NCBI GenBank assembly: GCA_903850335.1
Contig: CAINLJ010000132.1
Span: forward strand, 1-44,924
Direction of reading: 5' to 3'
Source of the DNA: an uncultured Bacteroidia bacterium
GTDB lineage: Bacteria; Bacteroidota; Bacteroidia; Bacteroidales; Prolixibacteraceae
DNA length: 44,924 bases
Shown here piece by piece: positions 12,387-14,620 of the stretch. Below the pieces are notes generated by a model. That model had not been told where the DNA came from, did no database searches, and saw only the letters and a list, made by a program, of their open reading frames with translations. A program made the position numbers and the translations under genes. Positions within the stretch are counted from its first letter, which is position 1. Each line of letters starts with the position of its first letter.

Positions 12387-12880
12387 TATCAACGCAATAT
12401 TCAAAGTGTAACACAACTAACCTCTGACATAGATTATCTTTTAACCCAAATCGAATGATCTGTTTAGAAGAATTTTGCTGTCAAATATTTCGTAAATATA
12501 TGTAAAACTTTAAAATATGGTTGCAAAAAGCCGGATAAGAAAATGCTACATAATGATAAATCATGACGTTAACTATTATTAAATAATAATGTTTTCCGGC
12601 GCATCTGAAATTTGACTTATGTATCAAAGAACTTCAGCAAGGAAATAATAAATGAACCGGGCCACACATGTAAAAGGTCTATCAACCTCCCGAATAGCGG
12701 GTTTAGATGGTTCATTTTAAACCTTACTGTCTCTTAGTTAATATAAAGTCAAAATTGTTACCTGATTTCCGGAGTTTTTTCAAAAAAAAGTCAAATTTTT
12801 AAGACATACAATTATTTTTGTTTGTGTTATTGTGTGTTTGATATTTTTTGTTTTCCTTTGCGACTGTTAATTTTGGTACT
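12387..12880. other. Intergenic region between sigma gene and trp leader
   Basis: This stretch of about 490 bp contains the start region of the sigma gene, a compact structured element (12650-12717) and the trp promoter region. TTTG motifs cluster upstream of the leader peptide, at 12817-12820, 12821-12824, 12837-12840, 12847-12850 and 12857-12860. The best pairing is a -33 box at 12817-12824 with a -7-like box at 12842-12850, which has three bases instead of two between TA and TTTG. No other gene was seen. Confidence 0.45.
12650..12717. other. Compact inverted-repeat element with two inner hairpins
   Basis: A closing stem of 9 perfect base pairs (12650-12658 with 12709-12717) encloses two small hairpins: 12675-12678 with 12685-12688, and 12689-12692 with 12698-12701. 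The result is a three-way-junction-like fold of 68 nt. On the plus strand it coincides with a 22-codon frame (12652-12720, ATG to TAA). It may be a small RNA, a REP-type palindromic repeat, or a remnant of a mobile element. No T-tract follows, so it is not a typical terminator. Confidence 0.45.
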
Positions 12881-12934
12881 ATGAAGATATTTAAATCAAT
12901 ATGGCTTTGGTGGGGCAACACTTTCCTCTGTTAG
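12881..12934 (+). CDS. trpL1: trp leader peptide 1
   Basis: A 17-codon frame, MKIFKSIWLWWGNTFLC, with Trp at positions 8, 10 and 11. The Trp codons (12902-12913) begin within the 5' arm of a perfect 12-bp stem (12897-12908 with 12939-12950) and run just past it, as expected for a ribosome-controlled attenuator. A ribosome stalled at these codons would block this stem and free the distal arm for the antiterminator. It is too short for ordinary gene finding. Its placement before trpE, Trp content and fit to the pairing scheme make the call strong, though translation is not proven. Confidence 0.88.
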   Translation: MKIFKSIWLWWGNTFLC

Positions 12935-13001
12935 AGGTAAAGCCATATTGTATTTTTTAAACATACAACCGGCTTACCTGTAACAGGTAAGCCGGTTTTT
13001 T
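12897..13001 (+). promoter_or_regulatory. trp attenuator 1
   Basis: Segments of a classical amino-acid attenuator. Segment 1 is 12897-12908, over the first Trp codons. Segment 2 is 12935-12950. Segment 3 is 12968-12980. Segment 4 is 12984-12996. Pairing 1:2 is 12 bp perfect. Pairing 2:3 is AGGTAAAGCC (12935-12944) with GGCTTACCT (12971-12979), with one bulged A, giving an antiterminator. Pairing 3:4 is 13 bp perfect with a TAA loop, followed by T12996-T13001, giving an intrinsic terminator. Low charged tRNA-Trp stalls the ribosome on 1, 2:3 forms and transcription continues. Confidence 0.9.
12968..13001 (+). terminator. Intrinsic terminator of trp attenuator 1
   Basis: Perfect 13-bp stem (12968-12980 with 12984-12996), a 3-nt loop and a run of six T. 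It lies between leader peptide 1 and leader peptide 2, so full-length trp mRNA must read through it. Confidence 0.93.
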
Positions 13002-13049
13002 AATTATTATTATTCTGAAATAAATTAATTATTCAAAAAACATCTGGCT

Positions 13050-13112
13050 ATGAAACAACTCAATCTAAATAGAAATTCCTGGCGGTGGCAGGATGACTCT
13101 TTACAATCGTGA
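13050..13112 (+). CDS. trpL2: trp leader peptide 2
   Basis: A second short frame, 20 codons, MKQLNLNRNSWRWQDDSLQS, with Trp codons at 13080-13082 and 13086-13088 on either side of an Arg codon. It starts 49 nt after the T-run of the first terminator and is itself followed by a terminator (13146-13185) before trpE. Sequence similarity to leader 1 is low beyond the Trp motif, so it is not a simple recent duplication. Trp is otherwise rare, and finding W-R-W in a 20-residue frame exactly here argues for a regulatory leader. Translation is not proven. Confidence 0.8.
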   Translation: MKQLNLNRNSWRWQDDSLQS

Positions 13113-13185
13113 ATGGATAACCCTTTCTGTTTATTTATGCAGAGAAAAACGGTTTATCGGATCACGGTGAACCGTTTTTATTTTT
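13071..13185 (+). promoter_or_regulatory. trp attenuator 2
   Basis: A second attenuator in series. The terminator stem is 13146-13156 with 13168-13178 (11 bp including one G-T pair, 11-nt loop) and the T-rich tail runs 13175-13185. An antiterminator can form between GATAACC (13116-13122) and GGTTTATC (13151-13158), with one bulged T. That opens the terminator stem. A protector pairing is less clear: 13071-13075 with 13124-13128 plus 13077-13079 with 13115-13117, or the local 13077-13081/13089-13093 hairpin over the Trp codons. Confidence 0.75.
13146..13185 (+). terminator. Intrinsic terminator of trp attenuator 2
   Basis: Stem 13146-13156 with 13168-13178 followed by a T-rich tail (13175-13185, one A). 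It ends 25 nt before the trpE start codon. Confidence 0.85.
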
Positions 13186-13210
13186 ACAAAATTAAATATA
13201 ATGCAAAGTC

Positions 13211-14620
13211 ATGAAAAAGTACAATTTTAAAACAAATGTAAGAGAGATCCTTGCAGATACTGTCACCCCTGTGAGTGTTTACCTTAAAATGCGTGACATC
13301 TTTCCAAATGCATTGCTGCTCGAAAGCTCTGATCATCATAGCCTCGAAAACAGCTATTCTTTTATTTGCCTTAAACCTAAAGCATCAATAGAAGTGGCAC
13401 AATTTAAGACAACACGGAAATATCCTGATGGACAAACCGAGACTGGCAGAATATCGAAGGCCGGACAGCTTGCTGAAGAAATGGAAGCTTTTTTTGATTG
13501 TTTCAATCCAGAAAATGAAGTTCCTGAATTGCCGGCAAATGGATTTTTCGGATATGTCAGTTATGACGGAGTCCAATACTTTGAGACCATAAAATTCAAC
13601 CACGCAATTAAACCTGAATACCAGATACCTGAGGTCCATTACTCATTTTACCACTACATAATCGCAATAAATCACTTTCAGAACAGAATACAACTCATTG
13701 AAAACCTCTTTGAAGGTGAGACTTCTTCTTTGAATATTATCGAGGACTTTCTTACAAGCCGCAATTTTGCTACTTTCTCATTCGATACCATTGAGGGTGA
13801 AAATTCAAATATTACTGACGAGGAGTACAAAGCTATGGTAACCAAGGGTAAAGAGCATTGTTTCAGAGGCGATGTTTTTCAGATTGTTTTATCCCGACAA
13901 TATGCACAAAAGTTTCTTGGTGATGATTTCAATGTATACAGGGCATTGCGTTCTATAAATCCATCGCCTTATTTATTTTATTTCGATTACGGTAATTATA
14001 AAATATTCGGTTCCTCACCTGAGGCGCAACTTCAGATAAACCAGAGAAAAGTCTCAATAAATCCCATAGCAGGCACATTCCGTAGAACTGGAAATGATGA
14101 ACAGGACCGCCGCCTTGCGGAGAAACTTTCCAAAGATCCTAAGGAGAACGCCGAACACGTAATGCTTGTAGATCTGGCGCGTAATGATTTAAGCCGAAAT
14201 GCGACAGATGTTAAGGTTGAGCTTTTTCGTGAAGTACAGTTTTATTCGCATGTGATACACCTGGTATCCAAAGTTACCGGAACTCTTCCGGAAGGAGCAA
14301 ATCCTGTTCGTGTGATGGGTGATTCATTCCCGGCAGGGACACTTTCAGGAGCGCCTAAGTTTAAAGCAATGGAACTTATTGACAAATACGAAAATCAGAA
14401 CCGTGGTTATTATGGTGGTTGCATAGGTTTCATTGGATTTGACAACTCATTTAATCATGCGATAATGATCCGTTCTTTTCTTAGCAAAAACAATACTCTG
14501 TTTTATCAGGCCGGTGCTGGTATTGTGGCAGCATCTGACGAGGAAAATGAGTTACAAGAAGTTGTAAATAAGCTTGCAGCCCTGAAAAAAGCTATCGTAA
14601 TGGCTACAGGAATAAAATAA
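13211..14620 (+). CDS. trpE: Anthranilate synthase component I
   Basis: Converts chorismate and ammonia (from glutamine via TrpG) to anthranilate, the committed step of tryptophan synthesis. At 469 residues it is the usual length. The N-terminal 'LLESSD' block (about residues 36-41) is the tryptophan feedback site. The C-terminal chorismate-binding domain has 'GDVFQIVLSRQY', 'FGSSPEAQL', 'PIAGTFRRTGNDEQDRRLAEKL', 'MLVDLARNDLSR' and 'GTLSGAPKFKAMELID'. It is the first gene of the trp operon, just after two attenuators, so both enzyme activity and transcription appear to answer to tryptophan. The start ATG at 13211 follows the second terminator by 25 nt. Confidence 0.96.
   Translation: MKKYNFKTNVREILADTVTPVSVYLKMRDIFPNALLLESSDHHSLENSYSFICLKPKASIEVAQFKTTRKYPDGQTETGRISKAGQLAEEMEAFFDCFNPENEVPELPANGFFGYVSYDGVQYFETIKFNHAIKPEYQIPEVHYSFYHYIIAINHFQNRIQLIENLFEGETSSLNIIEDFLTSRNFATFSFDTIEGENSNITDEEYKAMVTKGKEHCFRGDVFQIVLSRQYAQKFLGDDFNVYRALRSINPSPYLFYFDYGNYKIFGSSPEAQLQINQRKVSINPIAGTFRRTGNDEQDRRLAEKLSKDPKENAEHVMLVDLARNDLSRNATDVKVELFREVQFYSHVIHLVSKVTGTLPEGANPVRVMGDSFPAGTLSGAPKFKAMELIDKYENQNRGYYGGCIGFIGFDNSFNHAIMIRSFLSKNNTLFYQAGAGIVAASDEENELQEVVNKLAALKKAIVMATGIK

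Follow-up and report, generated by a model that had tools for sequence, protein, structure and literature searches.

Two putative tryptophan attenuators arranged in series upstream of a Bacteroidota trp operon

The trp operon trpE-G-D-C-F-B-A of the window (the whole stretch of 44,924 nucleotides that was analysed, from an uncultured Prolixibacteraceae bacterium) is directly preceded by a region, 12881-13185, which raises the question of whether one operon can be placed under two attenuators that answer to the same amino acid. Attenuation is a textbook mechanism. Biosynthetic genes are presented in PMC3641672 as being normally under a single attenuator answering one signal. The region features two units of the same plan, each with a short frame in which Trp codons cluster, alternative RNA pairings and an intrinsic terminator. 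Unit 1 (leader 1, terminator 1) is termed distal and unit 2, which is nearer to trpE, is termed proximal. An earlier note on this DNA had proposed that they are two tryptophan attenuators in series. The features are the following, strands 1 to 4 being numbered within each unit:

12830 to 12860, + strand: putative promoter-like motif (TTG at 12830, CTTTG ending at 12860), recurrent in the genus alignment
12881 to 12934, + strand: leader peptide 1, MKIFKSIWLWWGNTFLC then stop; Trp codons at 12902, 12908 and 12911
12897 to 12950, + strand: protector stem 1:2 of unit 1, 12 bp, perfect, 12897-12908 with 12939-12950
12935 to 12979, + strand: antiterminator of unit 1, 12935-12944 with 12971-12979; covaries across 42 distal units
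12967 to 13001, + strand: terminator 1 and T run, 12967-12980 with 12984-12997, then T to 13001
13050 to 13112, + strand: leader peptide 2, MKQLNLNRNSWRWQDDSLQS then stop; Trp codons at 13080 and 13086
13107 to 13167, + strand: antiterminator of unit 2, 13107-13122 with 13151-13167; covaries across 41 proximal units
13146 to 13185, + strand: terminator 2 and T-rich tail, 13146-13159 with 13165-13178
13211 to 14620, + strand: trpE, first gene of the operon, from Pfam domains; trpG, D, C, F, B and A come next, to 19795

Both leader frames were checked by script, and leaders, terminators and antiterminators lie within a base or two of where the earlier note had placed them. The 12-bp stem of unit 1 is indeed perfect. 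Terminator 1 is correctly positioned, with 14 pairs counted by the scan and not the 13 bp initially proposed. Antiterminator 2 exists and is longer than had been described: in addition to GGATAACC, CGTGA (13108-13112) takes part in it and pairs with TCACG of the terminator 2 loop, and its duplex in the window has an energy of -13.7 kcal/mol. The leader 2 stop codon is inside CGTGA, that is, within the 5' arm of this antiterminator, and the leader 1 stop codon abuts strand 2 of unit 1. The leaders were also remarked to have no Shine-Dalgarno site, which is ordinary in Bacteroidota. Note that the trpE product scores under the NCBIfam trpE cut-offs and owes its name to its domains and operon context.

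Leader frames are short, and frames and hairpins of this kind could in principle be fortuitous or artefactual. The terminator scan found 4 sites on both strands versus 0.4 expected in shuffles; they include terminators 1 and 2, each located between a leader and the gene, and another of the four is terminator 1 read on the opposite strand. For the leader RNA 12862-13210, the fold is 6.85 sd below those of its shuffles. A detector that calls a short Trp-clustered frame followed by a terminator, a description that both leaders of the window fit ahead of their trp gene, found two units in 0/3000 dinucleotide shuffles of this region (430 nt) and one unit in 8/3000. The same exercise on 99 upstream regions, shuffled 20 times each, gave one unit in 2/1980 and two units in 0/1980. 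Together with the conservation and covariation described below, these counts leave the chance reading with practically no credence; it is the conservation that refutes it.

Conservation was assessed among 18 genomes of the genus, that of the window included. A trpE match at E <= 1e-100 is present in 16, and in 14 of these the upstream DNA is readable. Leader 1 and terminator 1 were called in all 14 loci. Leader 2 and its stems, which the earlier note had proposed to look for in relatives, are found there: leader 2 and terminator 2 were called in 13 of the 14 loci and the stems covary. The exception is L017, whose unit 2, read by eye, starts with GTG, contains a single Trp codon and ends in a weak terminator. 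L014, though counted as called, has a small deletion that removed an arm of antiterminator 2. Within the genus, unit 1 has a mean pairwise identity of 0.88 and unit 2 one of 0.63, compared with 0.30 for the spacer, which also varies in length, 0.59 for the 70 nt before leader 1 and 0.47 from terminator 2 to trpE.

The pairings were tested by comparing duplex energies of each species' own strands with those of strands redealt among species, over 42 distal and 41 proximal units. With permutations that leave relatedness among species in place, and with a proximal strand chosen by a simple motif that misplaces it in at least one row (L020), cognate strands pair better in the distal antiterminator (-11.63 versus -9.45 redealt), the distal terminator (-18.16 versus -12.52), the proximal antiterminator (-10.00 versus -9.07) and the proximal terminator (-21.84 versus -17.66), 0/5000 permutations being as good in each case. 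Both the 3:4 pairing of the terminator and the 2:3 pairing of the antiterminator that excludes it covary in both units. When rows were divided, 0 to 3 of 5000 permutations were as good in the 26 rows from outside the genus and 0 to 153 in genus-type rows. The distal 1:2 stem displays no covariation among the 42 distal units (4842/5000 permutations as good) because it hardly varies: it is perfect in the window and its arms are nearly invariant throughout. A proximal 1:2 protector pairing, absent from the earlier note, was also detected (-11.55 versus -10.46, 0/5000, 41 rows). Outside the genus of the window it is mostly a nested hairpin, with the Trp codons in the outer helix and an inner helix that covers the antiterminator arm. 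Within the genus it is replaced by other folds, and the fold preceding terminator 2 in the window itself is different.

The distribution of the two units was defined in 99 distinct trpE upstream regions (36 with two units, 57 with one, 6 with none) and in 34 further distinct regions of the family, where the corresponding counts are 14, 15 and 5; note that some missing units reflect contig ends or a trpE without a leader directly ahead. Of 40 genomes taken from a search of the phylum, all but one from other orders, 38 have one unit, L210 has none and L221 was called with two. The earlier note had found the arrangement unusual, which holds for the pair and not for the single trp attenuator, standard in Bacteroidota as seen in these 38 of 40 genomes. 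The two-unit calls in L221 and in L121 were judged false, their extra frame being long and not a Trp-cluster leader. The core pattern of the distal unit occurs in 89 of 140 family genomes and a reversed control pattern in 2. Further matches to this core were rejected in G007 (L207) and, for one match, in G105 (L208), where they fall within sequence that looks coding; G072, G013 and G014 also have second matches.

In a TrpE tree (FastTree, 122 rows, some labels assigned by hand) the distal unit occurs in only one group within the family, whose node has a support of 88 (drawn open). The group has 67 rows, which are 51 full, 12 decayed, 3 unlabelled and 1 with a single unit (L031). A cultured species, Draconibacterium orientale (L074), is among the relatives with both units. 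Two changes on the tree account for presence and absence of the distal unit, and the remaining genera of the family carry one unit only. Double units are found ahead of trpE outside this main clade in L028 and L128, with WWW-type leaders in both units; the two units of L028, which score 72.4 and 71.4 bits with model R1, are closely alike, as a recent duplication would leave them.

The joint presence of the distal terminator and start codon was examined at all loci with a distal core, no frame being required, leaving out cores more than about 620 nt upstream and the variant distal leaders of L188-L191. Among the 57 loci, terminator 1 is accompanied by an in-frame ATG (<=12 codons) in 45, both are missing in 12, and no locus has one without the other. 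In the 41 of these 45 loci for which the script returned a value, 7 to 10 codons separate the ATG from the first Trp codon. The 12 losses fall at two separate places in the TrpE tree and represent two loss events, not twelve. The two units are not indispensable, as terminator 1 was lost in two clades (12 rows) and L031 has a single one. Conservation, covariation, reading frame and joint loss together bear out the proposal of two trp attenuators in series.

A bare distal 1:2 hairpin is found about 230 nt before trpE in L026 and L198-L204, and in L030, L091, L183 and L193. Its identity in these two clades, which have neither terminator 1 nor the leader 1 ATG, is 0.88 and 0.84, compared to 0.63 and 0.51 upstream. 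Such persistence, and the near invariance of the distal stem, would suit a different reading in which the proximal attenuator alone responds to tryptophan and the distal unit has been retained to do something else, for instance as an RNA-stabilising 5' hairpin or for polymerase pausing. The in-frame ATG found wherever terminator 1 is (45/45 loci) and the covariation of the distal antiterminator and terminator argue against this reading, which we regard as improbable.

The relation between the two units was investigated with a covariance model trained on 35 loci that have one attenuator and fall outside the tandem clade; it was searched over 48 loci. In the window it recognises the proximal unit with 54.9 bits (E 7e-11) and the distal unit with 39.7 bits (E 3e-7). 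The two units therefore look related, and the description of their leader sequences as unrelated is not supported. Distal units score 30.8 to 44.6 bits in 13 loci of the genus and 14.7 to 40.6 bits in the other clade members searched, L171 having no listed match; since reverse-strand matches to the terminator palindrome reach 32.5 bits and overlap the scores of these other members, homology is less firmly supported for them. The proximal unit is the ordinary single trp attenuator of Bacteroidota, Bacteroid-trp-like. The distal unit is probably an old duplicate of such an attenuator, gained once in the clade, a duplication being the simplest origin.

Action in series requires that both units are carried by one transcript. 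The TTG...CTTTG motif recurs just ahead of leader 1 in the genus alignment, and its arrangement resembles the Bacteroidota promoter consensus. A sigma-70 scan and an exact Bacteroidota-style consensus pattern gave no match ahead of leader 1, and the promoter-like call rests on the comparison within the genus. In the same alignment no conserved promoter-like motif was seen in the spacer between the units. Separate transcripts could nevertheless be envisaged, a second promoter between the units giving an RNA that meets the proximal attenuator only: the start site ahead of leader 1 is putative, and two genes sit between the units in L022 and L069. The low identity (0.30) and variable length of the genus spacer and its lack of a conserved promoter-like motif speak against this possibility, which appears very improbable. 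Low spacer identity and a motif found only ahead of leader 1 indicate that both units are most likely on one transcript, from a putative promoter. The intervening genes in L022 (3174-3798, reverse strand) and L069 (292-916) form a nucleotidyltransferase-HepT pair between the distal and proximal trp attenuators, an identity established by a Pfam run on the L022 copy only.

The trp leader is, with high probability, composed of two complete ribosome-mediated attenuators on one transcript, whose combined read-through would approximate the product of two probabilities. Under a shortage of charged tRNA-Trp, a ribosome would stall on the Trp codons and strand 2 would pair with strand 3, so that the terminator would be unable to form. 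With ample tryptophan, the ribosome would reach the stop codon and cover strand 2, and the terminator would form. RNA polymerase would have to clear both checkpoints, hence read-through roughly equal to the product of the two probabilities. Two units in series would be expected to give tighter repression and a steeper response than a single attenuator. Models for TrpR and TRAP detected nothing in 36/36 genomes; in the controls, the TrpR model was positive in E. coli and B. subtilis and the TRAP model in B. subtilis. As no TrpR or TRAP is detectable, leader control may carry most of the trp regulation. The units could also have different set points and yield a two-step response in place of a simple product. 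Their Trp spacing (W-L-W-W versus W-R-W) and duplex energies do differ, which is compatible with this version, yet set points do not follow from static energies; we consider it unlikely, with appreciable weight nonetheless. That two sensors of charged tRNA-Trp multiply termination is most likely. A natural pair of Trp attenuators that a large clade retains and some of its branches have lost offers a direct way to test what a second checkpoint contributes, be it stronger repression, a steeper curve or another threshold.

Matches to the Rfam Bacteroid-trp model (RF01692) led to a second gene, ilvD (TIGR00110 above its cut-off), where Ile/Leu/Val-rich leaders precede terminators. Seven relatives have tandem leaders there: G019 and 6 of 40 further family loci, among which 31 have one unit and 3 none (one of these 3 being a contig end). 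Shuffles gave a call in 0/1000. The loci with two Ile/Leu/Val-rich leaders, each with a terminator, are L250 (reverse strand), L264, L265, L267, L268, L274 and L289. The ilvD of the window's own genome (L257, G000 contig C261) has one branched-chain leader, MKNILSHNLLLVVILILVDAG, with a terminator. G031, G128, G152 and G135, which have two ilvD units or close to it, belong to genera with a decayed distal trp unit. The tandem leaders at ilvD imply that series attenuation recurs among relatives. A wider proposal, put forward tentatively and with some doubt, is that serial leader-peptide attenuation might be a recurrent, selected design in the family. Two translation-based sensors of tRNA charging, carried by one transcript and differing in set point, would have arisen once for trp and on a separate occasion for ilvD, and would give a repressor-like range without a repressor.

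The closest described element is the Bacteroid-trp motif, which according to PMC2864571 and PMC6414381 precedes trp operons in Bacteroidota and is likened to a Trp-rich leader attenuator. The leader of the window is likewise ahead of a trp operon in this phylum; Bacteroid-trp is known as one element, whereas here there are two in series. The RF01692 cut-off (49 bits) was reached by neither unit and in 0/37 genomes, and no curated cut-off was exceeded when the region and 20 loci were scanned with Rfam. In the window's own genome a single match was obtained at E up to 10, on another contig and at neither unit. Matches below the cut-off coincide with distal units in some family genomes (for example G008, G022, G093) and with proximal units in others (for example G027, G034); those in L251, L253, L254 and L256 were dropped for having no recognisable leader of either kind.

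The four-strand logic, the Trp codons in a short leader and the intrinsic terminator are shared with the E. coli trp leader, a single attenuator as described in PMC3641672, with no tandem, compared to two in the window; E. coli also has TrpR, found there as the search control, unlike the 36/36 genomes searched here. Salmonella mgtCBR resembles the window in having two leader frames in series on one transcript and differs in that its leaders answer two signals, ATP and proline (PMC3641672). Both leaders of the window are Trp-rich, and their clustered Trp codons point to one signal and not two. The mgtCBR leader is contrasted in that text with one having two intrinsic terminator sites (PMC3641672); unlike mgtCBR, each leader of the window has its own terminator. 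Sensors are also repeated before one operon in tandem riboswitches (glycine; metE of B. clausii), according to PMC3766115 and PMC3641672. Those riboswitches bind a metabolite, whereas in the window the proposed sensor is translation of a leader peptide. Tandem T boxes precede trp genes in Firmicutes. Searches of an open-access library yielded no description of paired leader-peptide attenuators that share a signal and have one terminator each, and subscription surveys may mention some. Known systems comprise single trp attenuators of Bacteroidota and tandem leaders for two signals; what appears to be new here is a conserved pair of Trp attenuators in series.
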